From Rhizobium acidisoli (GTDB lineage Bacteria; Pseudomonadota; Alphaproteobacteria; Rhizobiales; Rhizobiaceae), in NCBI RefSeq assembly GCF_002531755.2, contig NZ_CP034998.1, positions 1,364,001-1,428,000 of the forward strand: a stretch of 64,000 nucleotides of DNA, given 5' to 3'. Of the stretch, positions 33,474 to 46,427 are shown piece after piece (the first letter of the stretch is position 1; every line of letters starts with the position of its first letter). Made by a program: the position numbers and the translations under genes. The notes beneath the pieces are model-generated. The model was not told the DNA's origin and ran no database searches. It was given only the letters and a program-made list of their open reading frames with translations.

Positions 33474-33550
33474 GGACCAAAGTCCGGCCCGATCTAGTAC
33501 CTAGGTCCGGTTGCATTTATCCGCCGGAACGGCGAAAATTGGCGCGCGTC
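33474..33550 (+). promoter_or_regulatory. Tandem GGAC-N4-GTCC boxes with ECF-type promoter
   Basis: Box 1 is GGACCAAAGTCC at 33474-33485 and box 2 is GTACCTAGGTCC at 33497-33508, with centres 23 bp apart. An ECF-like promoter follows: GGAAC at 33526-33530, 16 bases, then CGTC at 33547-33550. The distance from the box 2 centre to the GGAAC is 23.5 bp. It lies upstream of the gene starting at 33591. The rest of the 308-base gap from 33283 shows no other gene. Confidence 0.6.
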
Positions 33551-33590
33551 TATATTGCGTAAGACGGCGAAGAGCGGACGAGGCTATGGC

Positions 33591-34112
33591 ATGACATTCT
33601 CGAAACGTGATTTTCTGAGATTGGGCGGCAGCGCGGCCATTGCTATCGTCGCAGCCGCATCGCCGGCCACATTCAACCTCGACGGCTTCCTTCCTGATCT
33701 TAAGGTAGAAAGCGCCCAGGCAAAGGACGGCAATAACGGGAATGGCAATGGAAACGGCAACGGCGGAGGAAATGGCAACGGCGGCGGCAACGGCAACGGC
33801 GGCGGCAACGGCAACGGCGGCGGCAACGGCAACGGCGGAGGCAATGGTAACGGCAATAGTGGCAGCAACGGCAACAGCGGTTCGGGCAATAGTGCCGGAT
33901 CCTCTGCCTCTTCCTCCGCGAGCGCCTCGCAGGAATCGGGGGCAACAGCGACCGAAGCGTCCGATGGCTCGATCGACGTCCGCCATGCGAACGGCATTAC
34001 CGAAACCCTGCGGCGTGGCCGCTACGTGATGAAGGACGGAAAGGGCAGGACGATCATAAGCCGGCAAGCGACGGCAAACGATGCCCGCCGGCTAGGCCGC
34101 TACCTCCGCTAA
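33591..34112 (+). CDS. Tat-exported Asn-Gly-repeat protein
   Basis: A 173-residue protein. The N-terminus KRDFLRLGGSAAIAIVAAASP looks like a twin-arginine-type signal with Lys-Arg in place of Arg-Arg, or a Sec signal. Residues about 45-90 are an Asn-Gly repeat (NGNGNGGG units), then a Ser-rich linker. The C-terminal part (ETLRRGRYVMKDGKGRTIISR) ends in KxGRxI-like beta sequence. The repeat is encoded by near-perfect 12-base units. GAGG is 7 bases before ATG 33591. No family recognised; probably a surface or periplasmic protein. It follows the boxed promoter and is convergent with the response regulator. Confidence 0.65.
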   Translation: MTFSKRDFLRLGGSAAIAIVAAASPATFNLDGFLPDLKVESAQAKDGNNGNGNGNGNGGGNGNGGGNGNGGGNGNGGGNGNGGGNGNGNSGSNGNSGSGNSAGSSASSSASASQESGATATEASDGSIDVRHANGITETLRRGRYVMKDGKGRTIISRQATANDARRLGRYLR

Positions 34113-34143
34113 AAAGCCTAAGGCGGGGATGTGGTCAACTGAT

Positions 34144-34764
34144 CTAGTGTTGGCGCCATTGCAGAGCCGCTTCAGTCCTGTTCGAGACGCCGAGCTTGCT
34201 CAAAATCTGCGTCATATGATGCTTCACCGTCTTTTCCTGCAGGCTGAGACGCAAGCCGATATGCTTGTTTGACAAGCCTTGAGCGACGAGATCCATCACC
34301 TCGCGTTCCCGTGGCGTCAGACCGTTCTTCTCGGTGGCGCCGCCATTCAGCGAATTCTCCATGACCTTTGTCGACATTGTCGGGGAGATATAGCGTGATC
34401 CGCTCAGCACAGTCTGGATGGCTTCGGCGAGACCGCGCGAGCCGACACCTTTGAGAACATAGCCCATTGCGCCCCGTTGCAGGGCTGCCATCAGCGTGTC
34501 CACCTCCTCGGATACCGTCAACATCAGCACTTTCGTTGCCGGGCTCCGCGTCAGCACGTCGCTGATCGCCGACAGCCCGCCACCGGGCATCGAGACATCG
34601 AGGAGCATGATGTCGGGATGGTTGTTCGCAGCGATCATCGCAGCGTCATCGCTGCTGGCGCCTTCCCCAACGACGGCAAAGTCGCTGATCTCGGAGAGGC
34701 TCCGGGTTACGCCCTCGCGAAAAAGCGGATGGTCGTCCACGACGCCGATCGTGATGGATGTCAT
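34144..34764 (-). CDS. LuxR/NarL-family response regulator
   Basis: A 206-residue two-component regulator. The receiver domain has acidic residues VVDDHP (10-11), phosphoacceptor Asp56 (MLLDVSMPG), Thr83 and Lys105 (YVLKG). The C-terminal LuxR helix-turn-helix (residues about 144-206) has LTPREREVMDLVAQGLSNKHIG. ATG at 34764 is two bases after the kinase stop, so the pair is co-transcribed. GGAC-N4-GTCC dyads lie upstream of its own operon and of several nearby genes. It is the natural candidate to bind them, but this is inference. Confidence 0.93.
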   Translation of the reverse strand: MTSITIGVVDDHPLFREGVTRSLSEISDFAVVGEGASSDDAAMIAANNHPDIMLLDVSMPGGGLSAISDVLTRSPATKVLMLTVSEEVDTLMAALQRGAMGYVLKGVGSRGLAEAIQTVLSGSRYISPTMSTKVMENSLNGGATEKNGLTPREREVMDLVAQGLSNKHIGLRLSLQEKTVKHHMTQILSKLGVSNRTEAALQWRQH

Positions 34765-34766
34765 GT

Positions 34767-36155
34767 CTAATCTCCCACTTCCATAGGCTCGAAGGTCATG
34801 GTCACCGTCGTCCCTCCTTCGCCCGTCTTTACGTCGAAGGATCCTCCCAGACTGTCGATCCGTTCGCGCAGCCCGACCAGGCCGAGGCTTGTCGGCCTCA
34901 CCTCCATCGGGTCGAAGCCATCGCCGCGGTCGCTGACCTCGACATGAACATGACCGTTGTGCGAGACGGCGCTTACGGTCTGCTGAATACCGCCGCCATG
35001 GCGATAGGCATTGTTCAAGGCTTCCTGAACGAAGCGATAGATACAGATCTTTACGGCAGGCGCGGGTTCGGGTCCATCGTCGTCGATAATTGTTTCGACA
35101 CGGGTTTCGGTCTTGTGCTGATGCGCTTCGACCACACGGGCGACGATCTCGGTGATCGAGGACTTCTCGATCTGCGGGAGCACCAGCCCGCTGCAGATAC
35201 TGCGGATCTCGGTCATCGCCTCGGCAAGGCTCGAACGTATCCACGCGAGCTCCTTTTCGCGCGCTTCGGGCGGGGTCGACGCATTGATCAACATATCGCT
35301 GTCCAGCCGCAGTGAGGCATAGGCAATGTGCTGGGCCGGACCGTCGTGCAGATCGGCGCCGATGCTCCGCAGATATGTTTCGTTCAGCGCCGCCACGCGC
35401 TGGGAGGCGCGCTGCAGCCGCCGCTGCAGCCCGCGGTTTTCCGCCAGCAGCGCAGACAGGTCGTTGACCCGTTCCTTGAGATCTTTCCGTTGCGCTTCGA
35501 TCGTGCGGCTGACCCGAAACACCAGGACGGCGAGAATAAGGAAAAAGATTGCTGTCAGAGCGGCGACGGCGGCCCAGCTCCGGAGCCTGGCATTGGTCAG
35601 ACTGTCGCCTAGTCCTTGCGCGGTCTCGTAGAATTCAATGACGGCGACGGCCTGTCCGGACCATGGCTGGAGCACAGGGTTGTAGATTTCCATCAGCGGC
35701 TTGCCGAGCGCACGCTCCTTTTCGCTTTCCGGATCGTCGGCGATTTCGTAGCGCGCAACGAGAGAGCCTGCGAAGGCTTTTCGAAGCTTGTCGTTGACCG
35801 CAAACGTCTTTCCCACAAGTTCTTTTTCGTTCGAGTAGAGAATGGTGCCGTCGCTTCGCCACAGCTTGAACGAAACAAGCCGCCTGCCGAGCGCGCCCTG
35901 ACCAAGCGTTTCGTCCAGAGCCTGGGCGCTGCCTTCGTCCAGGAATGATGCCGTTTGCATGTCGGGAAGCAGCGGCGCGACAACGCTGTCGACATAGAGT
36001 GCCGTCGCAGCACCGGAATTGTAGATGACTGCCTCCTCGATGAGATGGGTGACGAGAAGGCCCACCAGGAACATGGCGGCAATCGAGATCAAACCACCCG
36101 CGATGAAGAACTGCGAGGCGAGTGAGCGGGCATTCCAGCGGCGAAGCCAATTCAT
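34767..36155 (-). CDS. Membrane sensor histidine kinase (HisKA_3 type)
   Basis: A 462-residue kinase. It has a transmembrane helix (residues about 13-37), a periplasmic sensor region of about 160 residues, a second helix (about 197-220), a coiled coil, and a HisKA_3 dimerisation domain with the phospho-accepting His in IGADLHDGPAQH. A HATPase_c follows with NNAYRHGGG, DRGDGF and SLGLVGLRERI. This is the NarX/DegS-like class that pairs with LuxR-type regulators, matching the gene directly downstream. The periplasmic domain is unfamiliar, so the signal is unknown. Confidence 0.92.
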   Translation of the reverse strand: MNWLRRWNARSLASQFFIAGGLISIAAMFLVGLLVTHLIEEAVIYNSGAATALYVDSVVAPLLPDMQTASFLDEGSAQALDETLGQGALGRRLVSFKLWRSDGTILYSNEKELVGKTFAVNDKLRKAFAGSLVARYEIADDPESEKERALGKPLMEIYNPVLQPWSGQAVAVIEFYETAQGLGDSLTNARLRSWAAVAALTAIFFLILAVLVFRVSRTIEAQRKDLKERVNDLSALLAENRGLQRRLQRASQRVAALNETYLRSIGADLHDGPAQHIAYASLRLDSDMLINASTPPEAREKELAWIRSSLAEAMTEIRSICSGLVLPQIEKSSITEIVARVVEAHQHKTETRVETIIDDDGPEPAPAVKICIYRFVQEALNNAYRHGGGIQQTVSAVSHNGHVHVEVSDRGDGFDPMEVRPTSLGLVGLRERIDSLGGSFDVKTGEGGTTVTMTFEPMEVGD

Positions 36156-36218
36156 TGTGATACCGGTAAGAGACTTGCCGACTAACCTATCGCTTCCTCG
36201 AAATTTTTCCAGACGGCG

Positions 36219-36395
36219 TCAGGGGACATCCCTGGTATCGAAGATTTCGGCGCCTCTTATACTTTTCGTCAATTGGAGCGTATCGCCGGACATGGCTGCA
36301 CCGAAAACGTAGAGAAGAGCCGCCAGGACGACGACAAGGGCGACGACGCACACGTTGCAGGCGTCATTGACACGGGATCTGTTAGTCTGAGCCAT
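36219..36395 (-). CDS. Small single-pass membrane protein upstream of the sensor kinase
   Basis: A 58-residue frame with a strong AAGGAG eight bases before ATG 36395. The product is MAQTNRSRVNDACNVCV, then a membrane helix (VALVVVLAALLYVFGAAM), then a polar tail ending TRDVP. Cysteines sit just before the helix. It is 64 bases upstream of the kinase on the same strand and directly downstream of a boxed ECF-type promoter, so it likely leads the operon small protein-kinase-regulator. It may modulate the kinase in the membrane. No family recognised. Confidence 0.65.
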   Translation of the reverse strand: MAQTNRSRVNDACNVCVVALVVVLAALLYVFGAAMSGDTLQLTKSIRGAEIFDTRDVP

Positions 36396-36420
36396 ATCGG
36401 GATCTCCTTCACCCCTTCCA

Positions 36421-36486
36421 AACGACGCGGTCCTGTCCGCGTTCCACCCCCGGGACTTCGGTCTGACAGGCCTCGGACCTAGGTCC
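36421..36486 (-). promoter_or_regulatory. Perfect ECF-type promoter with tandem GGAC-N4-GTCC boxes
   Basis: On the minus strand GGAAC (36445-36441), 16 bases, then CGTT (36424-36421): an exact match to the EcfG/RpoE-type consensus known in alphaproteobacteria. Upstream are GGACTTCGGTCT (36453-36464) and the palindrome GGACCTAGGTCC (36475-36486), centres 22 bp apart. The nearer box is centred 13.5 bp from the GGAAC. It should drive the small membrane gene, kinase and regulator. Confidence 0.7.
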
Positions 36487-36557
36487 GGGCCCCGTAGACG
36501 TCACCAGATTCAGTCATATTTCAGCACTGACTGGTTCGGGGTTCTGGAGATTTGCGA

Positions 36558-37400
36558 GTGACAATTTCTGCTGACATCGAAAACGGCGCTCCCGCCACCT
36601 CTGCCCCACCATTCGATGAAGGTATGGCCGAGCTTTACCAGACCCTCCTGGTGCCGATCCTCTTCGCGCCTTATGCGACCGAGATGGCGATCGCCGCCGA
36701 CCAGTCGAAACCTGGAAGCGTTCTCGAACTCGCTGCGGGGACGGGCGCCTTGACGCGCGCCCTGCGCGCGACGCTTGATCCGCCAACGGAAATTGTTGCC
36801 ACCGACCTCAGCCAGGCGATGATCGACATCGGCGCGCCGACGGTGACGATGTCGCGGACCCACTGGATGCACGCCGATGCGCAAAATCTTCCCTTCGCGC
36901 CGGAGATGTTCGATCTGGTCATCTGCCAGTTCGGCGCAATGTTCTTTCCCGACAAGGTGAAGGCCTATAGCGAGGCAGAAAGAGTGTTGCGCAGCAAAGG
37001 CCGGTTTCTGTTTTCGACGTGGGATTCACTCTCGGTCAACGACTTCGCGAGCTGTGTCGACGAATGCCTGGCAGGTCTCTTCCCATCCGACCCTCCGGAT
37101 TTTCTCCGGCGCTTGCCATACTCCTACTTCGACCCCGGCGCCATCAAGGCGCAGATGTCGTCGGCTGGATTTAAGGCAGTGACCTGCGACCGGCTCGAAT
37201 TGACCTCCGTGGCGGCCAGCGCCCAGGACGTCGCAGCCGCATTCTGCCAGGGCACGCTTCTGCGGGGCGAGATCGAATGGCGGGCGCCGGAACGCATGTC
37301 CGAAATCGTCGATGAGGTGGCCGAGTGCGTGGAAGCGCGGCACGGAACTCGTCCTAGCGGCGGCATGAGCGCCTTGGTCGTCGCCGGTCGTGTCTCGTAG
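36558..37400 (+). CDS. Class I SAM-dependent methyltransferase
   Basis: A 280-residue methyltransferase of the Methyltransf_11/UbiE-like type. Motif I is VLELAAGTGALTRAL, motif II ATDLSQAMID, and post-motif regions ADAQNLPFAPEMFD and LRSKGRFLFSTWDS are clear. Substrate unknown. I start at GTG 36558 with GGAG 8 bases upstream; a TTG two codons earlier is in frame. It is divergent from the small membrane gene across the boxed promoter, so shared control is possible. Confidence 0.88.
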   Translation: MTISADIENGAPATSAPPFDEGMAELYQTLLVPILFAPYATEMAIAADQSKPGSVLELAAGTGALTRALRATLDPPTEIVATDLSQAMIDIGAPTVTMSRTHWMHADAQNLPFAPEMFDLVICQFGAMFFPDKVKAYSEAERVLRSKGRFLFSTWDSLSVNDFASCVDECLAGLFPSDPPDFLRRLPYSYFDPGAIKAQMSSAGFKAVTCDRLELTSVAASAQDVAAAFCQGTLLRGEIEWRAPERMSEIVDEVAECVEARHGTRPSGGMSALVVAGRVS

Positions 37401-37517
37401 TTCCTCGGCCGAGTGCCGGCGCATTAATCATACAATTCCTACAATCATCCTCCCATTTTATAATCATTCTTAATTGGAACATGCTTCACTCGTCCGAAGG
37501 CCGAGGGAATAGCATTC

Positions 37518-38462
37518 ATGTCGACAATTTTTCGAATTCTGATCGCAGCATTGATCTTGCTGCCGACAGCCGTCTTTGCTGATGCCGACGACTGGCGGGT
37601 GGTCAAGGCGACAGATCAGGTGAAGTATACCGTCGACAGGACGAACTGGCAGGACCTGCGCGCCGGCGAGGTGGTTCCCAACCGGGCATGGGTCTCCACA
37701 GGTCCGCGGGGGCGGGTTCAGCTTGCCAGGGGTGTCGAGAGCATCACGTTTCAGCCAAACACGCTTGCCGCCATCTGCACCAACGAATCCGCTGCGATGA
37801 AGACGCAGATCTACCAGCAGGTCGGTTCGCTGGACCTTGAAATCGAGAAGCGGCGCCAGCCGCATACGAGCGTACAGACGCCCTACCTCGCGGCAGTTGT
37901 GAAAGGAACGATCTTTCATGTGACGACCGATAGGACGAAGGCGTCCGTCGCCGTGGATCGCGGCCTGGTCCAGGTCACCTCGTTTGCCAGCGGCCAGCGG
38001 TCGAATGTGGCGCCGGGTCAGAGCGCGACTGTCGACAAGAAAGCCGGCATGACAGTGGCGGGCCGGTTATCCAAGCCCGAGATCACCTCGGTTGCGCCGT
38101 CGGTCGCCCAGATTCCGGCCGTCGGCACCACGAGCCTCGCCGGCGCCACCGCCGAGGCCAAGAGCAGCTCTTCGGCAACGAGCAAGACCACCAACGCGAA
38201 CGACGATGACAGCAGCAGCAACGGCAAAAGCAACGGAAATTCCAGCAGCAACGGCAACAGCGGAAACGGCAATAGCGGCGGCCGTGGCAATTCCGGCGGA
38301 AACGGCAACAACGGCAATGGCAACGGTCATTCCGATGACAGCGGTAACAGTGGGAATGGCAACGGCAATTCCGGCAATGGCAACGGCAACAGCGGCAAGG
38401 GCGATAATAACGGCGGTGGCAAAGGTAACGGCGGCGGAAACGGCAAAGGCAAGGACAAGTGA
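37518..38462 (+). CDS. FecR-domain protein with Asn-Gly-rich tail
   Basis: A 314-residue exported protein. It has a signal peptide (ending TAVFADA, about residue 23), a SH3-like/LysM-like start and a FecR domain (about residues 60-175, GPRGRVQLARGVESITFQPNT ... VVKGTIFHVTTDRTKASVAVDRGLVQVT). A long low-complexity tail follows (about 210-314) of Ser, Asn and Gly ending GGGKGNGGGNGKGKDK. FecR domains of this type pair with CHASE2 sensors in other bacteria. The stop overlaps the CHASE2-EAL start (GTGA), so the two form one operon. Confidence 0.85.
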   Translation: MSTIFRILIAALILLPTAVFADADDWRVVKATDQVKYTVDRTNWQDLRAGEVVPNRAWVSTGPRGRVQLARGVESITFQPNTLAAICTNESAAMKTQIYQQVGSLDLEIEKRRQPHTSVQTPYLAAVVKGTIFHVTTDRTKASVAVDRGLVQVTSFASGQRSNVAPGQSATVDKKAGMTVAGRLSKPEITSVAPSVAQIPAVGTTSLAGATAEAKSSSSATSKTTNANDDDSSSNGKSNGNSSSNGNSGNGNSGGRGNSGGNGNNGNGNGHSDDSGNSGNGNGNSGNGNGNSGKGDNNGGGKGNGGGNGKGKDK

Positions 38463-41233
38463 GAGATAGAGCCAAGGCGGCTGGGGATCACCTCTCCAAC
38501 GGCATCAGCACGATCACGGTTCGGCTTTTGCTGATCGCCGTCATGCTGGCGCTGCCCATGGCCGGATCCAGTCTCGGCCTCCTGCAGGGGATCAACAACA
38601 GTCTTTTCGCCAAGCGCTTCGAATGGGCGCCTCGCACCGCCACCGGCAACATCGTCTTCGTTGCAATCGACAAGCACTCCCTCGACGCCGTCGGCACATG
38701 GCCCTGGCCGCGGCACATTTACGCGACGCTGCTCGATAAGCTGGTCGCCTCTGGCGCCAAGGACGTCTTCCTCGACGTTGATTTCAGCGCCTTCTCCGGC
38801 ACCGAGGAGGACGAGCGTCTGGCGGCGGCGCTCGCGAGATCCGGAGGAGGGGTCCTTCTGCCGGTGTTCCGGCAGCAGGAGATGGCGTCATCGTCTGAAA
38901 CCGCGGTGACAAGGCCGATCCCGCAGCTCCTGCAGAATGCCTGGCCTGCATTCGCCAATGTCGCGATGGATGCAGACGGGATCGTCCGCCGTTTCGATCT
39001 GGGAAGCCAGCTCGATGGAAACCCCACCCAATCCGCCGCAGCAGCCCTTGGCACGATAGACGGCAGTGCCGGTTCCCGGCTGATCGACTACTCGATAAGG
39101 CCCGACACCGTCCCGACATTCTCCTTGTCCGACGTGCTGAACGGGAGCGTGCCGGCAGAGGCAATCAGAGACCGCTCGGTAGTGGTCGGGGCATCGGCAG
39201 CCGAGCTGAAAGACATTTTCGCCGTTCCCGTCTACGGCGCCATCGCCGGCCCGCTTATTCACGTGCTCGCGGCCGAGACGCTGCTCCAGAACCGTTTCCT
39301 CAGGATGGTCGATGAGGTTCCGCTGGAACTCTTGTTTGCGGCCCTGCTGATCGTCGGCGTCATCCGCAGCCGTTCAACCGGCCTTGTCACGATGATGGCG
39401 GTCGCACTGACCATCGTTGCCGTCGGCGAGATCGGCGCATTCCTGCTACAGTGGCGGTACGCGATCCTTGTCGGAACGGCGGTGCCGTGGTTGACGCTGC
39501 TGCTTGCGTGGATGCTCGCCCTGAACGAGCGTGTCGACCTCGGCCGAATGCTTGTCGCCATCGCCAATACCGAGGCTCGAAACACCCGACGCCTGATGAG
39601 AAGGATCATCGCCGACAGTTCGGACGGTGTCGTCGCATTCGACAGCGATCTGAGGATCGTCGAGGCGAGCGAATCCGCAAAGGCGGTGCTGCGAGCCGAG
39701 ATCGGCGCCTCCCTTCTCGCCAGCACCGACGCCGCCATCATCGACCTCGTGCGCAGGCTGGTTTCAGAGCGCGACGCCGAACCGGGTAGGGTGCACACGG
39801 CCCTTGTCGACTTCGCAGGCAAAAGGGGTTCGCAGGCGACGCATTACGAGGCATCAGTCACGATTTCGCCCATTGAACAGCCGAATGCGCATCCGGCCGC
39901 GGCGCGGTCGCGATTTGCCGGTTGCCTCATCATCCGGGACATCACCGCGCGATACGACTATGAAGAACGGTTGAAGACTCTGTCCGAGCTGGACGAACTC
40001 ACCGGACTGCTCAATCGCCGGGAATTTGCATATCGGCTGGCAACCCTCGAGGGCGATATCCTCGTCTCCGTGCTGGATATCGAACGTTTCTCCTCGCTTT
40101 GCGCCACGCTTGGGCGCGACGTCGGCGACGAACTCCTGAAAGCCGTCGCGTCAAGACTCGGTGATGCATTCGCCGGGCATTTGCTGGCAAGACTGGACCG
40201 TGACCATTTTGGCATCGCCACTTCGATGACGGACGCACGTCCGATTGAGGATTTTGCCAATGGTCTTTTGGCGCTGTTCGAGGAGCCTCTGCAGCTCCGC
40301 GGTTCGGCCGTGCCGATCTCGGTCCACGTCGGAATAGCCAGCTCGGAAGATGCCGCCCCCGGCGCGCTCCTGAACGCCGCCGAATCCGCGCTTGATGCTG
40401 CCAAGGCCCTGGCCGGCCGGCGATGGTCTTCTTTCGATCCTTCCGCTGCCGTTCGCCAGGCCCGGTCACGCCGGCTGGAACGGGACATGCGCGATGCTTT
40501 CCGGGACCGGCAGTTCTTCCTGCTGTTCCAGCCGCAGATCGAATTTGCGAGTGGGCGCCTTTTAGGTGCCGAAGCCCTGATCCGATGGAACCATCCCGAG
40601 TTCGGTTTGATATCGCCGGCCGAATTCATCCCGATTGCCGAATCCTCCGGCTTGATCTGCGAGATCGGCCGCTGGACGCTGTTCGAGGCCTGCACCGAAG
40701 CGGCCGCCTGGCCCGGTGAACTCGGCGTCGCCGTCAACGTCTCGGCACTTCAGTTCGAGCAGTCCGACATCGAGGCCGATGTGAGGGAGGCCTTGTCAAA
40801 CAGCGGGCTTCCTCCTTCCCGCCTGTGCCTCGAGCTGACGGAGTCGGCTTTCCTCGGCCAAGGCGGAGCCGTGATCGCAAAGATGCGCGCGCTTCGCGAA
40901 GCAGGGGTCGTCATTGCCTTGGACGACTTCGGCACCGGCTATTCCTCGATGAGCTACCTTGCCGATCTTCCACTCGACAAGCTTAAGATCGACCAGTCCT
41001 TCGTCCGGCGAATGAACGGAAGTCCGACTGTATTGGAGATCGTCCGCGCCATCATTTCGTTGGCGCACGGCTTGAACCTGCAGGTCGTCGGCGAAGGTGT
41101 TGAAACCGAGCTGGAGGCCGAAGCGTTGCAACGGCTCGGATGCGAGACGGGGCAGGGCTATCTCTTCGGGAGGCCGGACGAGGCTCTACGCATGCTTTCC
41201 AAATGGAATGTCCAGACACGTCTATCGGCCTGA
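38459..41233 (+). CDS. CHASE2-PAS-GGDEF-EAL protein, probable c-di-GMP phosphodiesterase
   Basis: A 924-residue membrane signalling protein. It has an N-terminal helix, a periplasmic CHASE2 domain (about 40-280, FVAIDKHSLDAVGTWPWPR), three membrane helices (about 285-345), a PAS-like domain (about 360-500), a GGDEF domain (about 500-650) and an EAL domain (about 660-915). The GGDEF signature is degenerate (LDRDHF), so no cyclase activity is expected. The EAL domain keeps GAEALIRW, VNVSALQF, LELTES, DDFGTGYSS and GEGVET, so it should hydrolyse c-di-GMP. GTG start overlaps the FecR stop. The FecR protein may present the CHASE2 signal. Confidence 0.93.
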   Translation: MRDRAKAAGDHLSNGISTITVRLLLIAVMLALPMAGSSLGLLQGINNSLFAKRFEWAPRTATGNIVFVAIDKHSLDAVGTWPWPRHIYATLLDKLVASGAKDVFLDVDFSAFSGTEEDERLAAALARSGGGVLLPVFRQQEMASSSETAVTRPIPQLLQNAWPAFANVAMDADGIVRRFDLGSQLDGNPTQSAAAALGTIDGSAGSRLIDYSIRPDTVPTFSLSDVLNGSVPAEAIRDRSVVVGASAAELKDIFAVPVYGAIAGPLIHVLAAETLLQNRFLRMVDEVPLELLFAALLIVGVIRSRSTGLVTMMAVALTIVAVGEIGAFLLQWRYAILVGTAVPWLTLLLAWMLALNERVDLGRMLVAIANTEARNTRRLMRRIIADSSDGVVAFDSDLRIVEASESAKAVLRAEIGASLLASTDAAIIDLVRRLVSERDAEPGRVHTALVDFAGKRGSQATHYEASVTISPIEQPNAHPAAARSRFAGCLIIRDITARYDYEERLKTLSELDELTGLLNRREFAYRLATLEGDILVSVLDIERFSSLCATLGRDVGDELLKAVASRLGDAFAGHLLARLDRDHFGIATSMTDARPIEDFANGLLALFEEPLQLRGSAVPISVHVGIASSEDAAPGALLNAAESALDAAKALAGRRWSSFDPSAAVRQARSRRLERDMRDAFRDRQFFLLFQPQIEFASGRLLGAEALIRWNHPEFGLISPAEFIPIAESSGLICEIGRWTLFEACTEAAAWPGELGVAVNVSALQFEQSDIEADVREALSNSGLPPSRLCLELTESAFLGQGGAVIAKMRALREAGVVIALDDFGTGYSSMSYLADLPLDKLKIDQSFVRRMNGSPTVLEIVRAIISLAHGLNLQVVGEGVETELEAEALQRLGCETGQGYLFGRPDEALRMLSKWNVQTRLSA

Positions 41234-41518
41234 CGGCTCGCCGGGTTTGCGCTGTGGGGTCGTAAGTCCGAGGGAAGGTTCGTGGATCGCCCGGATGACA
41301 TGTTTTTCGATCTCGAAACAGGTCTCGTCATATTCTTGCACCAGCTTCGGATCGAACCGTCGTTTGCGAACGGAATCGCGCGCTTCGATTGCCATCTGGT
41401 AGGCCTCGAAGAGCTGGAGCTGCCAAGGATCGCGCGCTTCCATGATCAGCTTCCGCATCTCCGGCAGACGCATCGCCAAGCGCCTGCGGCCCGCCTCCCT
41501 GCGGTTGGATCGTGCCAT
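41222..41518 (-). CDS. Small basic hypothetical protein, 98 residues
   Basis: A 98-residue helical protein rich in Arg (MARSNRREAGRRRLAMR), with no signal. AGGAG lies 10 bases before ATG 41518; the longer frame to 41656 runs through the boxed promoter and is not used. It is tail-to-tail with the CHASE2-EAL gene and overlaps it by 12 bases. No family recognised. Confidence 0.5.
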   Translation of the reverse strand: MARSNRREAGRRRLAMRLPEMRKLIMEARDPWQLQLFEAYQMAIEARDSVRKRRFDPKLVQEYDETCFEIEKHVIRAIHEPSLGLTTPQRKPGEPSGR

Positions 41519-41604
41519 CTCCTTCAGTCTCCTGCCTATGCCGCGTACGACCGGTTCCTTTCCATCCGAAAATAGCGCCGGCAACGGACATTGAAATGCG
41601 CTTA

Positions 41605-41670
41605 GGACCAAAGGCCGGGATCGATCGGACTGAGGTCCGGGGCGTGGAACGACCACGCCGCTAACTGGTT
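41605..41670 (+). promoter_or_regulatory. Tandem GGAC-N4-GTCC boxes with ECF-type promoter for the DUF1236 gene
   Basis: GGACCAAAGGCC at 41605-41616 and GGACTGAGGTCC at 41627-41638, centres 22 bp apart. An ECF-like promoter GGAAC (41646-41650), 16 bases, GGTT (41667-41670) follows, with the nearer box centred 13.5 bp before GGAAC, exactly as in the kinase promoter. The gene at 41719 follows. The boxes are also upstream of the divergent small gene starting at 41518, but no ECF-like promoter points that way. Confidence 0.6.
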
Positions 41671-41718
41671 GGTTTGGCAGCGGTCACCAAGGCCGCTTCA
41701 AAACAGAAGGAGGAAAAT

Positions 41719-42117
41719 ATGCTCTCCAAGCTTATCGTTTGTGCGGCAACTGCCGCGACCCTCATGTCGGGCGTCGCATTCGCCCAGTCCTCGACCGTCA
41801 ATGGTGCGGCCGGCGGCGCGGTTACCGGAGCGATCGTCGGTGGCCCCGTCGGCGCTGCTGTCGGCGGTGTTGCCGGCGCCATCGTCGGCACCGCGATCGA
41901 TCCGCCGCCGCAGAAGGTCGTCACCTATGTCCGCGAGGCTCCGGCCCCATCGGCGCGCGTGGTCGTCAAGGAGAAGGTTGTCGTCGGACAGCCGCTGCCG
42001 GAGACGGTCGTCGTGACGCCTATTCCGGATGATCCGACATATGCCTATGCGGTGGTCAACGATGAACGTGTCATCGTCGAACCGTCTTCTCGCAAGGTTA
42101 TCCAGGTCATCAAGTGA
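41719..42117 (+). CDS. DUF1236 protein with glycine-zipper segment
   Basis: A 132-residue exported protein. It has a signal peptide (MLSKLIVCAATAATLMSGVAFAQ), a glycine-zipper-like segment (AAGGAVTGAIVGGPVGAAVGG) and a C-terminal DUF1236 domain with PDDPTYAYAVVNDERVIVEP. A perfect AAGGAGG precedes ATG 41719. DUF1236 proteins are rhizobial envelope proteins, often stress-induced. It lies directly behind a boxed ECF-type promoter. Confidence 0.8.
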   Translation: MLSKLIVCAATAATLMSGVAFAQSSTVNGAAGGAVTGAIVGGPVGAAVGGVAGAIVGTAIDPPPQKVVTYVREAPAPSARVVVKEKVVVGQPLPETVVVTPIPDDPTYAYAVVNDERVIVEPSSRKVIQVIK

Positions 42118-42127
42118 CTTGACCTCT

Positions 42128-42147
42128 CCGCGGCCCCTCTGCCGCGG
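42128..42147. terminator. 7-bp GC hairpin between the two DUF1236 genes
   Basis: CCGCGGC (42128-42134) and GCCGCGG (42141-42147) form a perfect stem with a 6-base loop, 10 bases after the first DUF1236 stop. No U-run follows, so it is likely partial termination or 3'-end protection. The rest of the gap to 42228 shows nothing else. Confidence 0.4.
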
Positions 42148-42227
42148 CTTACTCCGGAAATCATCGTTTAGAACAGCCGCACGGCGCGCAGCAGCGACGT
42201 CGTGCGGCCAAAATCAGTGAGTTTGTT

Positions 42228-43046
42228 ATGAAGACCAAGATACTCGCCGTCCTGATGACGGCACTTTCGATCGGCGTCTCGCCAATCGGCATCTCAGCCT
42301 CGGCGCAGGATGCACCGATCCTTCCCAAGAAGGGTGCGGCTCAGAACGACCAGTCCAGCGGCGGTGCCGCGCAGCAGCCGGAAGCGGGCGGCGCGGGCGC
42401 ATCGACAGGTCAGGGCACGCAGCAGCCTTCAGGCTCTGACGGAAGCTCGTCGGGCGCATCCTCTGGGACCGCCACCGATGGATCCTCGGGTCAGACGGCA
42501 ACCGAGCCGGGCGCGAAGACGCAGTCCGGAAGCTCTGACAGCTCGAAGACGCCCAAGTCGAAACAGTCCTCGACGGAAAGCCAGAAGCCTGCCGCCAGCC
42601 AGGACTCCCAGACATCCACCGGCACCTCGACCGGTGGCGAAACCCAAAAATCCGGCGATGCCGCGAAGTCTTCCGGCGGTTCGACCGAGACCCAGTCCAA
42701 CAGCAAGACGAACGTCGAGAACAACAACACGTCGGTCGACAGCAACACCAAGAACACCACCAAGACCGAGACCAACAATACGACCAACGTCAACATCTCG
42801 GTCGAGCAGCAGACGGAAATCCGGACTGTCGTGAAGGACGTTCATGTCGAGCCGGTTCGTGAGACGAATTTCACGGTCTCGGTCGGCACGGCCATCCCGA
42901 AGAAGATCAGGCTCGAGCCGCTGCCGCCGCGGATCGTGGAAATCGTTCCGCAGTACAAGGCCTATCGTTTCTTCATCCTCGCCGACGGTCGGATCGTTAT
43001 CGTCGATCCCTCTGCGTTGACGATCGTCTACATCATTTCGGCCTAG
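42228..43046 (+). CDS. DUF1236 protein with long Ser/Gly/Thr-rich low-complexity region
   Basis: A 272-residue exported protein. It has a signal peptide (to about residue 27, ISASAQ), a low-complexity region (residues 40-175, Ser, Gly, Thr, Gln and Asn, with an Asn/Thr-rich end) and a C-terminal DUF1236 domain (about 185-272, ending YRFFILADGRIVIVDP...). It is a paralogue of the DUF1236 gene just upstream with an added disordered spacer, so it probably reaches across the periplasm or coats the surface. The ribosome-binding site is weak. Confidence 0.75.
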   Translation: MKTKILAVLMTALSIGVSPIGISASAQDAPILPKKGAAQNDQSSGGAAQQPEAGGAGASTGQGTQQPSGSDGSSSGASSGTATDGSSGQTATEPGAKTQSGSSDSSKTPKSKQSSTESQKPAASQDSQTSTGTSTGGETQKSGDAAKSSGGSTETQSNSKTNVENNNTSVDSNTKNTTKTETNNTTNVNISVEQQTEIRTVVKDVHVEPVRETNFTVSVGTAIPKKIRLEPLPPRIVEIVPQYKAYRFFILADGRIVIVDPSALTIVYIISA

Positions 43047-43055
43047 CAGCCGGCG

Positions 43056-43078
43056 CCCGGCGGCTTAGCGCCGCCGGG
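43056..43078. terminator. 9-bp perfect GC hairpin
   Basis: CCCGGCGGC (43056-43064) pairs fully with GCCGCCGGG (43070-43078) around the loop TTAGC. It sits in the 46-base gap between the DUF1236 gene and the small membrane gene. With no U-run it may attenuate or protect the transcript rather than terminate it. Confidence 0.45.
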
Positions 43079-43092
43079 ATGAGGAGAGGAAA

Positions 43093-43260
43093 ATGATTTA
43101 TTCCGAAGAGAAATCCACTGGTCTGGCTCTGCCGCTGGTCGTCATCCTGCTGGCGATCGCCGGTATCCTCGCCGTGCTTGTCGTCACCGGCAGCCGACAG
43201 GGCAGCACGGTCAGCCGCGTCTGGGTTCCACAGGTGCAGCAGCAGGGAGCGGGACAATGA
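43093..43260 (+). CDS. Small single-pass membrane protein, 55 residues
   Basis: ATG at 43093 follows GAGGAGAGG. The product starts MIYSEEKSTG, has one membrane helix (LALPLVVILLAIAGILAVLVV) and ends VPQVQQQGAGQ. The stop overlaps the BA14K start as ATGA, so the genes are translationally coupled. No family recognised. It resembles small inner-membrane partners of envelope proteins. Confidence 0.65.
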   Translation: MIYSEEKSTGLALPLVVILLAIAGILAVLVVTGSRQGSTVSRVWVPQVQQQGAGQ

Positions 43261-43838
43261 ATGGCCTCGCATCTGTCGCCTTCGGCATCGTCAGCTCGGT
43301 CGGGGCCTGCATAGCCGTCGCATCCGTTGCCTCCCACGTCGCGGCGGATTCCGAGCCGCATGCCTTACAGAACCTCGCCGAGCCCGATCTTTGGACGACA
43401 GGGCCGGTCAAAGTCGAGCCTCATCAGCAGGGCTATGAACGGATTGCGCCCGTCTATTCCAGCTATGTCACCGAGGCGCCGGCCGTCATGACGGCAAGGG
43501 CGAAGCCGGATCCCATCGGCTCGTCAACCGAACCCTTGGTGCCGCAACCAAAGTTTTCGGCCGAACACCTTGCCTGGTGCGCGCAACGTTACCGCTCCTT
43601 CGATCCTGCGACCAACAGCTATCGATCCTACAGTGGCGAAATCCGCGCCTGCTCTTCGCCGCACCAGCCTGATGTCGCCGCGGCCGATGAAGGCGCGGGC
43701 ACGACAGTCAATGCACAGGCGGCGGCCTGGTGCGCCGCTCGCTACAGGTCGTATCGGCCTGAAGACAATACATATCAGCCGTGGGACGGCCCGCGGCGCA
43801 ATTGCGACGCATCTGTGCTCGTGGCGACGAGCAATTGA
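43257..43838 (+). CDS. BA14K-family protein with two BA14K repeats
   Basis: A 193-residue exported protein with a signal-like hydrophobic N-terminus (residues 5-30). It carries two copies of the BA14K motif: WCAQRYRSFDPATNSYRSYSG near residue 108 and WCAARYRSYRPEDNTYQPWDG near residue 159, each followed by a cysteine. BA14K proteins are envelope proteins first known as a Brucella antigen with lectin-like activity. Two motifs in one protein suggest bivalent binding. Coupled to the small membrane gene upstream. Confidence 0.85.
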   Translation: MNGLASVAFGIVSSVGACIAVASVASHVAADSEPHALQNLAEPDLWTTGPVKVEPHQQGYERIAPVYSSYVTEAPAVMTARAKPDPIGSSTEPLVPQPKFSAEHLAWCAQRYRSFDPATNSYRSYSGEIRACSSPHQPDVAAADEGAGTTVNAQAAAWCAARYRSYRPEDNTYQPWDGPRRNCDASVLVATSN

Positions 43839-43861
43839 GCGTGGCCGCGCCGCGCGATGTT

Positions 43862-43905
43862 GGACCAAAGTCCGTGTTGCAAACGCTACGGTTGTGATAT
43901 CGGTT
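43862..43905 (+). promoter_or_regulatory. Single GGAC-N4-GTCC box with weak ECF-like promoter
   Basis: GGACCAAAGTCC at 43862-43873 is identical to box 1 of the 33.5-kb promoter. It is followed by CAAAC (43880-43884) and GGTT (43902-43905), a degraded match to GGAAC-N16/17-CGTT. It lies upstream of the gene at 43930. Only one box is seen here. Confidence 0.45.
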
Positions 43906-43929
43906 GCGTTGAGGGTCGGAGATCAGGGG

Positions 43930-44244
43930 ATGGCGACGACGCTGGTAACGGAAATCCAGAGGGCGCAGGCAAGGCTCCGGTTCCTGAGCAGGGCGGACCG
44001 GGGCGCCCTTATCGTCCGCATTCTGCGCGAGCTGCAGACCCATCGGCATGAGGTTCTCGGCCATGTGCCGGCCGACCGCTGTGTCTGGATCGACAGGCTC
44101 ATCGCCTCCGTTTCCTCGACGATAGCGGAGATCACCGGCATGCCGGACGCCGAATTCAATCGTGTCCTGAACGAGTTTGAAAAGCTCATGGCGACACTGC
44201 AGGATGTTTCACATGCGGAAACGCAATTGAAGACAATTCATTGA
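43930..44244 (+). CDS. Hypothetical cytoplasmic helical protein, 104 residues
   Basis: A 104-residue all-helical protein (MATTLVTEIQRAQARLRFL...) without signal or membrane segment, with cysteine only in ADRCVW. GGAG is 8 bases before ATG 43930. The longer upstream frame overlaps the BA14K gene and is not used. No family recognised. It is followed by a terminator. Confidence 0.55.
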   Translation: MATTLVTEIQRAQARLRFLSRADRGALIVRILRELQTHRHEVLGHVPADRCVWIDRLIASVSSTIAEITGMPDAEFNRVLNEFEKLMATLQDVSHAETQLKTIH

Positions 44245-44255
44245 AGAGGAATTGC

Positions 44256-44282
44256 CCGCGGTCTTATCGCGGTCTCGTTTTT
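44256..44282 (+). terminator. Rho-independent terminator
   Basis: CCGCG (44256-44260) pairs with CGCGG (44268-44272), followed by TCTCGTTTTT to 44282. It is 11 bases after the stop at 44244. Confidence 0.6.
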
Positions 44283-44352
44283 CCGAGTGAAAATTTAGTC
44301 GCTTCCGGCTGTCCCCCGGAAACAGATCCCGTCGTGCAAGCGTTCTCAGTCC

Positions 44353-45243
44353 ATGACCGAAACGAAATCCCCGGCAGATCGTGACGAGGCGCCAGCGGGC
44401 GATGACGACCCCAAGCCCGGCGCCGAGGTATCCTTCCCCTATGACAGGATGACTGTCGAGCAGTTCCGAAAGCGTTTCCCGCGTGCCCGCTGGAGCGATG
44501 CCCGCAAGGCCTGGTTCGTTCCCGGCCGGACGGCGCCCCGCCGCATCGGGCGATGGCTTGCCGAGCTGGAGGCCGAAGCCGACGCCCATGCGGATGCGAA
44601 GGGGCGCGACGCCTTTGCCTTCGATCCGATCGACAGCCCATATCTTCAACTCGGCAAGGCAGGTTTTCGAATCCGCACGCCATACTCGAAAACTGTCGTC
44701 GACGAACTGCGCGAGGTGCCATTGTCCCGGTGGGACGGCGATCTCAGAATATGGCACGTTCCCTTCCGATCCTATGAGGACCTCAGGCGCAGATGGCCCG
44801 ATATCGAAGCGGCGGCTCGCAGAAACGAGCCGGAAGAGAGACGGCGCCGGGCCGAGGAGAGGAAAGGGACGGAACAGGAGATGCGCAGCAAACTGCGCTC
44901 TGCGGAACGAAAGCGTCATCGCTACCCGCTTCCCGGTGACGATCTGCCGCCGCTGGGAAGACCGGTCGCCATCTCCTACGGCATCGTCATCTTTACTTAT
45001 ATCACCGGCGAACTGGCCGACCCGGATATCGTCGCGGACGTCTATCCCGGTGTGACCGAGGATCACGTCTGGGGATATTGGCGGGCGCCCACGCTCGAAG
45101 AACTCGTCCGCACCTGGCCTGCGAAAACGCCTCCCGTTCAAGGTGCCGAGTGGTGGCTGCCGACGATCGAGGAACTAAGGCCGGCGCGCCGCGCGGCAAG
45201 ATCGCGCGAAGCCAGGAGGCGTGGGAAGACGCCCGTGATTTGA
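44353..45243 (+). CDS. Hypothetical protein with two HARP-like repeats
   Basis: A 296-residue cytoplasmic protein. Residues about 27-70 (FPYDRMTVEQFRKRFPRARW...KAWFVPG) and about 106-150 (IRTPYSKTVVDELREVPLSRW..., RIWHVPF) look like two copies of the HARP domain known from SMARCAL1-type annealing helicases: a hydrophobic strand, a helix, then W-x-(F/V)-P. No helicase domain follows. A charged coiled region (160-195) and a C-terminal domain with several Trp complete it. The likeness to HARP is from pattern only. It could bind forked or single-stranded DNA. The ATG has no clear ribosome-binding site. Confidence 0.5.
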   Translation: MTETKSPADRDEAPAGDDDPKPGAEVSFPYDRMTVEQFRKRFPRARWSDARKAWFVPGRTAPRRIGRWLAELEAEADAHADAKGRDAFAFDPIDSPYLQLGKAGFRIRTPYSKTVVDELREVPLSRWDGDLRIWHVPFRSYEDLRRRWPDIEAAARRNEPEERRRRAEERKGTEQEMRSKLRSAERKRHRYPLPGDDLPPLGRPVAISYGIVIFTYITGELADPDIVADVYPGVTEDHVWGYWRAPTLEELVRTWPAKTPPVQGAEWWLPTIEELRPARRAARSREARRRGKTPVI

Positions 45244-45262
45244 AGAAGGACATAAGCGACCA

Positions 45263-45367
45263 ATGCATGTCGCCCGGAAGTGTGCAGCGGTTCCGGGATA
45301 ACGACATGCATCAAAACAAAGAGCTAAAGCGCGTCACATGAATCAAGTTTGATGCGACGCGCTTTAG
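45263..45367. repeat. RIME1-like rhizobial intergenic mosaic element
   Basis: Two palindromes in tandem, about 105 bp in total, typical of the Rhizobium-specific intergenic mosaic element RIME1. The first has arms ATGCATGTCG (45263-45272) and CGACATGCAT (45302-45311). The second has 12-bp arms CTAAAGCGCGTC (45324-45335) and GACGCGCTTTAG (45356-45367). It is inserted between the HARP-like and L,D-transpeptidase genes and ends exactly at a GGAC-like box. Confidence 0.8.
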
Positions 45368-45420
45368 GCCTAAAGTCCGAGGATCCTTGCTCGATGGAAC
45401 AAGTTTCGGCGACGGCCATT
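45367..45420 (+). promoter_or_regulatory. Box-like site and ECF-type promoter for the L,D-transpeptidase gene
   Basis: GGCCTAAAGTCC at 45367-45378 differs from GGAC-N4-GTCC by one base. GGAAC (45396-45400), 16 bases, then CATT (45417-45420) follows; the box centre is 23.5 bp from GGAAC, as in the 33.5-kb promoter. The upstream box expected 22-23 bp away is absent, because that place is occupied by the RIME-like repeat. Confidence 0.5.
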
Positions 45421-45428
45421 TGTCGTCT

Positions 45429-46427
45429 ATGAAAACAGCCCTGCCGATGTCGCTGCTCGCTTTGATCATCTCCGTTGGCGATGGTGTCGCGGCAGAACTC
45501 AAACCCGATGCAATCAACGCCGCTTCGATTGCATCAATCAAAACAGAAAAGCGCTCGTCCGACGATCCGGACCCGGCAATCGTCCGCCTCCAGGTCCTCC
45601 TCGATCGGGCAGGCGCATCTCCTGGTGTCATCGACGGGCTCACCGGCGAGAACGTCAACAAGGCGGTGGCCGGTTTCGAGGCGATGAACAAGCTTCCCAT
45701 CGATGGAAGGGCGGACCCGGACGTCGTTTCCCGCTTGGAAGAAGGTGCCTCGATACCGATCGTCGAGAGCTATGTCGTCTCGGCGGACGACGCCAAGGGC
45801 CTCGTCGATCGGATACCCGAGGATTATGGCGAGAAGGCCAAGATGCAGAGCTTGGGATATACCAGCGTTGCGGAAAAGCTATCCGAGCGGTTCCACATGG
45901 GTATCGATCTCGTCAATGCGCTCAACCCGGCTTCGCAGTTTGCGCCTGGCGATACGGTGTGGGTGGTGAACCCCGGTCCCCCGAGGAAAGGCAAGGTCAA
46001 GAGGATCGAGGCCGACAGGAAGACGGGCCAGGTGCTCGCCTATGCCGAGGACGGAGCGCTGCTTGCAGTCTATCCCGCGACGATCGGCAGCGAAGACAAC
46101 CCGGCGCCGTCGGGCAAACACAAGGTCAAGGGCGTCGCGAGAATGCCGGTCTACCGCTATGACCCGAAGCGCAACTTCAAGCAGGGAAAGAACGACAAGG
46201 TCCTGACCATTCCGAAAGGGCCGAACGGTCCGGTCGGTACCGTCTGGATCGATCTGACAGAGCCTACCTATGGCATACACGGGACACCTGAGCCAAAGCT
46301 GATCGACAAGGTCGGCTCGCATGGTTGCGTGCGGCTGACGAACTGGGACGTTGAAGAACTGGCCGGCATGGTCAAGCCGGGCGTCCTGGTCGATTTCGTC
46401 AATCGAAGTTCAGTCGCTCCGAAGTGA
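45429..46427 (+). CDS. L,D-transpeptidase (YkuD) with peptidoglycan-binding domain
   Basis: A 332-residue periplasmic enzyme that makes 3-3 or lipoprotein cross-links in peptidoglycan. It has a signal peptide (to about residue 23), a peptidoglycan-binding-type domain (about 35-90), a LysM-like region and a YkuD domain (about 200-325) with the conserved HGT and the catalytic SHGCVRL motif near residue 305. ATG 45429 has no ribosome-binding site. If the ECF-like promoter ending at 45420 is used, the mRNA would begin at or next to this ATG (leaderless). A TTG at 45387 is an alternative start. Confidence 0.88.
   Translation: MKTALPMSLLALIISVGDGVAAELKPDAINAASIASIKTEKRSSDDPDPAIVRLQVLLDRAGASPGVIDGLTGENVNKAVAGFEAMNKLPIDGRADPDVVSRLEEGASIPIVESYVVSADDAKGLVDRIPEDYGEKAKMQSLGYTSVAEKLSERFHMGIDLVNALNPASQFAPGDTVWVVNPGPPRKGKVKRIEADRKTGQVLAYAEDGALLAVYPATIGSEDNPAPSGKHKVKGVARMPVYRYDPKRNFKQGKNDKVLTIPKGPNGPVGTVWIDLTEPTYGIHGTPEPKLIDKVGSHGCVRLTNWDVEELAGMVKPGVLVDFVNRSSVAPK

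Follow-up and report, generated by a model that had tools for sequence, protein, structure and literature searches.

Paired DosR-like boxes before EcfG-type promoters suggest a second signalling input at envelope genes of the Rhizobium general stress response

The 64,000-bp stretch of Rhizobium acidisoli analyzed here (contig NZ_CP034998.1, positions 1,364,001 to 1,428,000; hereafter the window, whose own numbering is used below) carries on its minus strand an operon for a two-component system. Its first gene encodes a small membrane protein of 58 amino acids (aa; 36220..36396), followed by a membrane histidine kinase of the HisKA_3 (DesK) type (462 aa, 34767..36155) and a NarL/LuxR-type response regulator with the recognition helix EKTVKHHMT (206 aa, 34144..34764). 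The operon is preceded on the same strand by an exact GGAAC-N16-CGTT element (36421..36445), which is the promoter motif of R. etli EcfG1 in the consulted part of PMC3892343. Upstream of this element lie two palindromic boxes: the proximal one, GGACTTCGGTCT as read on the plus strand (36453..36464), stands 7 bp before GGAAC, and the distal one, GGACCTAGGTCC (36475..36486), lies 22 bp from the proximal box. Because pairs of boxes resembling those of mycobacterial DosR stand at a fixed distance before general-stress promoters of envelope genes, the sequence suggests that a second signalling system is wired into part of the Rhizobium general stress response, at cell-envelope genes.

The other promoter of this kind in the window belongs to an operon for DUF1236 proteins. 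Its distal box GGACCAAAGGCC (41605..41616) and proximal box GGACTGAGGTCC (41627..41638), the latter again 7 bp before GGAAC, precede an EcfG-type element of the form GGAAC-N16-GGTT (41646..41670, plus strand). Downstream on the same strand are the genes of a DUF1236/Gly-zipper protein (41719..42117; PF06823, 3.9e-20) and of a second, long DUF1236 protein (42228..43046; PF06823, 2.1e-14), probably of the same operon, to which a small open reading frame (ORF, 43093..43260) and a BA14K-like protein gene (43257..43838) possibly belong as well. The gene order BON, DUF1236, DUF1236, small ORF, BA14K occurs on the R. phaseoli plasmid pRphaR744a.

The core of the palindromic element is GGACYNNRGTCC, and pairs 22 bp apart are its commonest arrangement. 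A consensus, TCGGACYTARGTCCGA, was taken from the frequency table of 242 distinct paired sites, which shows preferences also at positions unused by our box score (maximum 8; thresholds of at least 6.5, 7.0 or 7.5, and of at least 13.0 for pairs in loci of other families). The first-pass annotation of the window had described GGAC-N4-GTCC pairs at three promoters and single boxes at two more. All of its coordinates were recovered on re-reading (33474, GGACCAAAGTCC; 33497, GTACCTAGGTCC; 36453, 36475, 41605 and 41627, as given above; 43862, GGACCAAAGTCC; 45367, GGCCTAAAGTCC), with the correction that in each pair one box departs from GGAC-N4-GTCC by one letter. The boxes of the three pairs are 23, 22 and 22 bp apart, and the gaps to GGAAC are 17 or 7 bp. 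The EcfG-like elements placed after boxes in four cases are all present, with GGAAC-N16 followed by CGTC at 33547, CGTT at 36424 (minus strand), GGTT at 41667 and CATT at 45417.

The boxes are above chance. There are five copies of GGAC-N4-GTCC in the window against 1.29 expected, a number reached in 1 of 100 shuffles; one of them, at 40231, lies within a GGDEF-EAL gene and outside the box set annotated earlier. A pair followed by GGAAC and at least three of the four letters of CGTT was found three times for GGAC and never for any of 23 control half-sites, which were the other half-sites made of the same letters as GGAC or of their complement. Throughout the genome (7.5 Mb, five contigs; code G000), neither bare GGAC-N4-GTCC (90 sites vs. 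153 for the reversed pattern) nor GGACYNNRGTCC (31 vs. 43) was enriched. The bare box was dropped as a genome-wide marker; the arrangement alone is informative. Pairs with a spacing of 22 were enriched in this genome (25 vs. 11), while those with a spacing of 23 alone were not (11 vs. 18).

A kinase search of named genomes returned 60 loci; two from Clostridium (L074, L075) were left out of all counts, leaving 58 (L016-L073), to which a few genomes contribute two loci each. A composite was scored where a far and a near box (each at least 6.5 of 8, 21-24 bp apart) preceded an exact GGAAC-N16/17-CGTT. We found such a composite upstream of the operon for small membrane protein, kinase and regulator in 44 of these 58 loci from other genomes. 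The gap between near box and GGAAC was 7 bp in 43 of them and 6 bp in one; the distance between boxes was 22 bp in 39, 23 bp in three, and 21 and 24 bp in one each. In 32 close kinase promoters the core box columns had a mean identity of 0.947, compared with 0.667 elsewhere (Mann-Whitney P = 1.4e-9); the boxes alternate between GACC and GACT and their flanks drift, with constant spacing. Among 24 half-sites, GGAC ranked first in the 58 loci for pairs 21-23 bp apart (134 pairs; runner-up 37). A single pair is shared by two divergent promoters in L046, L049, L051, L052, L066, L071 and L073, and the far-side ORF, where readable, is a DUF1236/Gly-zipper gene (all of these except L071). The kinase is 98% identical in R. 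redzepovicii (L016). The regulator adjoins the kinase in 76 of 78 loci, and the other two (L067, L068) end inside the kinase gene. From this adjacency and the predicted regulator sites in the operon's own promoter, we infer a cognate, autoregulated two-component operon. Next to it in the window, a FecR-domain protein overlaps a CHASE2-GGDEF-EAL protein (37518-41233).

The DUF1236 composite is kept in 29 of 30 close relatives (L016-L045; three of the four CGTT letters allowed), the exception being L037, with a far box under threshold. Judged by sequence conservation, the kinase-operon (44/58) and DUF1236 (29/30) elements are both conserved EcfG-promoter motifs. The earlier statement that boxes stand beside EcfG-type promoters holds for these two operons but not for the Tat/Asn-Gly gene (EcfG element in 13/44 orthologues) or the transpeptidase gene (box in 4/26) described below. 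One further composite, at C1:695260-695304, precedes the gene of a Gly/Ser-rich protein that looks exported and has no Pfam family; two more lie on plasmid C5, at C5:48303-48347 and from C5:789795, each before a two-gene DUF1236 operon; a single GGACTTAAGTCC precedes the BON-domain gene beside the last of these. The genome has 11 DUF1236 genes, which we grouped in eight transcription units. GGAAC-N16/17 with at least three letters of CGTT lies upstream of all eight, and box pairs occur at the three two-gene operons only. With three more composites elsewhere on the chromosome and plasmid C5, the predicted regulon is dispersed over both and covers a subset of EcfG-type promoters, and the description of it as local had to be given up. 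Single boxes stand before a small BON gene next to a DUF1236 operon (L231 5407-5418, L236 5965-5976), with a possible sigma70-like -10 element about 25 bp downstream as judged by eye. A box pair with GGACC in place of GGAAC, and no clear gene behind it, lies at G000 C5:785797-785841 (L091, L231).

The distribution of the arrangement was then compared with that of the kinase in 199 genomes of the same family, 60 of which had a kinase match (E<=1e-40). A pair with GGAAC (at most two mismatches) was present in 15 genomes, 13 of them with the kinase (hypergeometric p = 3.8e-6, kinship ignored; reversed pattern in 3 genomes), and the exact pair in nine, eight of them with the kinase (p = 3.3e-4, kinship ignored; reversed pattern in 4 genomes). 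In these genomes the composites follow the kinase. There were 26 pattern matches, 16 of them in other genera, and behind eight of these 16 lies a gene for DUF1236 (5), BA14K (2) or an Asn-Gly-rich protein (1). We also collected 20 distant loci from the 60 kinase genomes (kinase identity 53-58%, one locus from the window's genus). They held 19 GGAC pairs (21-23 bp) in 13 of 20 loci, compared with at most five pairs for any of the 23 other half-sites; when spacings of 18-27 were allowed, there were 23 GGAC pairs vs. none in reversed sequence.

Beyond the family, the order supplied 16 kinase loci, from 13 genomes in other families (kinase identity 34-42%). In 11 of the 16, a box of at least 7.0 was found no more than 250 bp upstream of the kinase, and the best other half-site reached 4 of 16. 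Pairs 22-23 bp apart at 13.0 or more were found in L197, L198, L199, L202, L206 and L207. As for an EcfG element behind these boxes, GGAAC within 20 bp occurred only in the near-identical L206 and L207, and there without CGTT; TANNNT begins 25 or 26 bases after the box in 4 of the 11 loci. Because the kinases of other families keep the box (11/16) without an EcfG element, the box appears to belong with the two-component system and to predate the coupling to EcfG, which would be secondary.

Boxes without a nearby EcfG element occur in the window as well, at 43862. This single box, GGACCAAAGTCC (43862..43873), has no GGAAC beside it and, by eye, a TAT-containing, possibly sigma70-like -10 about 24 bp downstream; behind it is the gene of a small protein of unknown function (104 aa, 43930..44244, plus strand). 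A box of at least 6.5 was found at -62 to -89 in 39/39 orthologues (32 at 7.5 or more), down to 37% protein identity, and an EcfG-like element in 0/39. The gene at 33591..34112 (plus strand) encodes an Asn-Gly-rich exported protein with a signal like that of twin-arginine translocation (Tat; 173 aa, no Pfam family above cut-off). Its promoter contains a distal box GGACCAAAGTCC (33474..33485), a proximal box GTACCTAGGTCC (33497..33508) 23 bp from it and directly followed by GG-TTGCAT, and an EcfG-like GGAAC-N16-CGTC element (33526..33550, plus strand) that is not conserved. Among 44 orthologues with an alignable start, 36 have a box of at least 7.0 at -112 to -131 and 13 have GGAAC with at least three letters of CGTT (12 of the 28 close ones). 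In those 28, a box followed by TTGC(A/T)(T/A) is present without exception, and GAAA lies 16-18 bp beyond TTGC in 21. Because the box-TTGC junction is kept in 28/28 and the EcfG-like element in only 13/44, we read this promoter as a probable pair at a sigma70-like promoter, in place of the EcfG type assigned to it earlier; the EcfG-like element might be a chance occurrence or have been added.

The L,D-transpeptidase gene (YkuD + PG_binding_1; 45429..46427, plus strand) presents the reverse case. Its EcfG-type promoter GGAAC-N16-CATT (45396..45420, plus strand) is conserved in 26/26 orthologues, and the weak single box GGCCTAAAGTCC (45367..45378) is not, a box of at least 6.5 being found in just 4/26 (the window itself is excluded from this count and from the 39/39 above). 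Control of this gene by the box was therefore abandoned. A phasing of 13.5 or 23.5 bp, one helical turn apart, had also been claimed; the conserved composites have a gap of 7 bp (43) or 6 bp (1) in all 44 cases, and a conserved class of EcfG composites with a gap of 17, phased by 10 bp, was rejected on the counts from the Tat/Asn-Gly (13/44) and transpeptidase (4/26) promoters. Its loss leaves our estimate for the regulator and the boxes unchanged, because that link rests on other evidence.

The regulator consists of a receiver domain (PF00072, 1.4e-20) and a GerE/LuxR helix-turn-helix domain (PF00196, 2.4e-19). Its recognition helix EKTVKHH aligns with EKTVKNY of DevR/DosR of Mycobacterium tuberculosis, and the lysines at the positions of DosR K179 and K182 are kept. 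According to the excerpt of PMC5999986, K182, N183 and K179 are the core DNA-binding residues of DosR, with K182 forming bonds to one A and one G in the site. EKT[VI]K[HQ]H is found in 76/76 of the regulators beside the kinase (78 loci); the helix in other families is mostly EKTVKHY, with other letters in L204 and L211. Of nine aligned GerE domains of the genome, only this regulator has K-T-V-K, the other eight helices being ENTVK, EATIK, DNTVN, SKTAS, EITVK, ESTVK, EVTLQ and EVTVK. Like the DosR motif TTSGGGACTWWAGTCCCSAA in the consulted part of PMC2275270, the boxes have GGAC half-sites around four central bases, and one 12-mer, GGACTAAAGTCC, occurs both in an oligonucleotide in the excerpt of PMC5999986 and, in R. 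johnstonii 3841 (L027), before the small gene. A further likeness lies in the adjacent sites near the -35 element, which DevR binds cooperatively and from which it activates (PMC3029386, excerpt). Because the DosR residue N183 is replaced here and the box flanks are not those of DosR sites, the regulator is not classed as a DosR, although it may work like one. The Rhizobium system also differs in its promoters, which are partly of the EcfG type, in its predicted targets, which are envelope proteins, and in its DesK-like kinase, for which an alpha/beta sensor flanked by two long helices is predicted; the kinase of the DosR system carries a haem GAF sensor. The proposal that the adjacent LuxR-type regulator controls the boxes is thus strengthened by co-occurrence, conservation outside the family and a DosR-like helix.

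Pfam domains and Foldseek matches gave a DesK-like HisKA_3/ATPase kinase core; crystal structures of DesK appear high among the Foldseek matches, from rank 5 on. The structure model (mean predicted local distance difference test score 80.8, predicted template modeling score 0.46, low template modeling scores for whole-chain matches) was relied on only for the DesK-like core and for an approximate outline of the sensor, and the alpha/beta part between the two long helices is provisionally taken as a periplasmic sensor. DesK-DesR of Bacillus subtilis has the same type of kinase core, but its sensor part, boxes and targets differ from those of the Rhizobium system.

With respect to the general stress response, genes for an extracytoplasmic function (ECF) sigma factor, NepR (PF18557) and PhyR (PF22029, PF22233) lie side by side in this genome (L234). 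This cluster and the GGAAC-N16-CGTT motif (PMC3892343, excerpt) are what the locus has in common with the PhyR-NepR-EcfG response; it differs in a second two-component system with its own putative DNA sites at a subset of promoters. No such second system is named in the consulted parts of PMC3892343, PMC3188799, PMC6599016 and PMC8103513. A further GGACCAAAGTCC box (L230 1528-1539, G000 C5:702327-702338) stands 61 bp upstream of an ECF sigma gene that is probably orthologous to R. etli ecfG2 (PF00052). The ecfG2 assignment follows from published primers (PMC3188799, excerpt) that match p42f on both sides of RHE_RS26680. Among 11 orthologues taken from 157 plasmid records with a match, five have a box of at least 6.5 there, and the right half is GTCCG-TATCGTA in most. 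The box could be a PhyR-independent input to ecfG2, which we mention as a lead only.

Taken together, these data make it probable that a self-regulating DesK-type kinase and a DosR-like regulator act through the boxes, as dimer sites of the regulator, to co-activate part of the EcfG promoters as well as some of sigma70-like type. In the mechanism that we propose, the regulator (34144-34764) would be switched by the adjacent membrane kinase and, once phosphorylated, would read GGAC half-sites much like mycobacterial DosR, probably with cooperative binding to pairs 22-23 bp (two helical turns) apart, as for DevR near the -35 element. At the kinase and DUF1236 operons, the proximal dimer, 6-7 bp upstream of the GGAAC -35 element, could touch EcfG-RNA polymerase. 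Such composites would follow an AND logic, with highest activity once EcfG has been released by general stress and the regulator has been phosphorylated in response to the kinase signal. In the second kind of promoter, a pair or single box would stand against a sigma70-like -35 element with a -10 about 25 bp downstream; the Tat/Asn-Gly promoter, that of the small gene at 43930, one BON promoter and the kinase promoters in other families would belong here. The targets would mainly be exported envelope proteins, encoded on chromosome and plasmid.

Several observations weigh against this mechanism. The composite is missing upstream of the kinase in 14 of 58 loci (L053-L063, L065, L067, L068), although 11 of these (L053-L061, L063, L067) carry one elsewhere in the locus and L062 has the near box alone. 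Two of the 15 pattern genomes have no kinase match, the co-occurrence p values take no account of kinship, and no recognized envelope gene was seen behind the other eight of the 16 pattern matches in other genera. A pair followed by GGAAC with all four letters of CGTT was found in only 3 of the 20 distant loci (L143, L147, L148), and six extra loci of the same family had no excess of GGAC pairs (two pairs in 1 of 6 loci vs. three for one control half-site). As regards recognition, the position of DosR N183 is H in 74 and Q in 2 of 76 regulators, ERTVK occurs in two other-family loci with boxes (L199, L202), the flank is TCGGAC here vs. GGGAC in DosR, and the helix, being nearly invariant across the 76 regulators, offers no covariation with box letters. 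In L053-L061 and L063, the composite is at a DUF1236-type promoter 5-6 kb away from the kinase, with a gap of 6 bp.

The closeness of the pairs to the -35 element would also suit repression, in which the bound pair blocks polymerase until the kinase signal removes the regulator, and autorepression is common among regulators. The sites, however, lie upstream of GGAAC-CGTT and not over it, at a fixed 6-7 bp, a place usual for activators, and we consider repression unlikely. DevR, with similar sites, is an activator in the consulted part of PMC3029386. It is also conceivable that the boxes belong to a different regulator and lie near this kinase incidentally: 17 matches to the regulator (E<=1e-5) were found in the genome, and the binding of this regulator to the boxes is a prediction. 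Against this, the boxes track the kinase locus through genera and families, box pattern and kinase co-occur in genomes, and the DosR-like K-T-V-K is found in just this one of nine GerE domains, which makes a different regulator very improbable. Finally, EcfG alone might matter, with DUF1236 and related genes as plain general-stress genes and the box pairs without present function. All eight DUF1236 units have an EcfG-like promoter and three have box pairs, and the transpeptidase keeps its EcfG element where the box is lost. Box cores are, however, conserved amid drifting surroundings, their spacing is constant through GACC/GACT swaps, the Tat/Asn-Gly and 43930 promoters keep the box without an EcfG element, and seven loci share a single pair between divergent promoters. 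We therefore regard this explanation as the least probable of those considered.

The co-activation that we favor has a parallel at algD of Pseudomonas, an ECF promoter (AlgU) that also requires a response regulator (AlgR). AlgR is of the LytTR type, with sites and spacing unlike the Rhizobium boxes. A NarL-type regulator, a DosR-like box and an EcfG promoter are each known parts; we found no description of the box or the regulator in rhizobia, nor of the joining of these parts there, in the open-licence literature. A bolder hypothesis, to which we give slightly less than even weight, is that an old and autoregulated two-component system of the DosR-like kind, present in the order and initially used with sigma70-like promoters, was captured by the Rhizobium general stress response, dimer pairs 6-7 bp from GGAAC contacting EcfG-RNA polymerase and making part of the response conditional on a second, envelope-type signal. 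If this were true, the response would be a two-key system for the DUF1236 envelope module, at odds with a view of EcfG promoters in which the sigma factor suffices.

For a kinase and regulator that are widespread among Rhizobium and found in other families too, the analysis proposes a DNA code and a likely role; for the DUF1236, BA14K and Asn-Gly-rich envelope proteins, which have received little study, it proposes a common control. It may serve as an example of how a second input splits a general stress regulon, and offers a natural comparison with DosR, with the same box logic at other promoters and for another signal. The predicted sites are precise enough to be tested by a few mutants in rhizobia.

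Aluminium stress was considered as the signal, and no link is claimed. In the excerpt of PMC8909678, DUF1236 and BON genes of R. phaseoli are aluminium-induced; no box of at least 7.0 lies near AMC88_RS25470, the BON gene with strong induction, and the induced DUF1236 gene was not located. Apart from the boxes, GGACCGGAGTCC was found in six copies inside 16 kb (G000 C2:485224-500876); it is GC-centered and looks like a separate repeat family.

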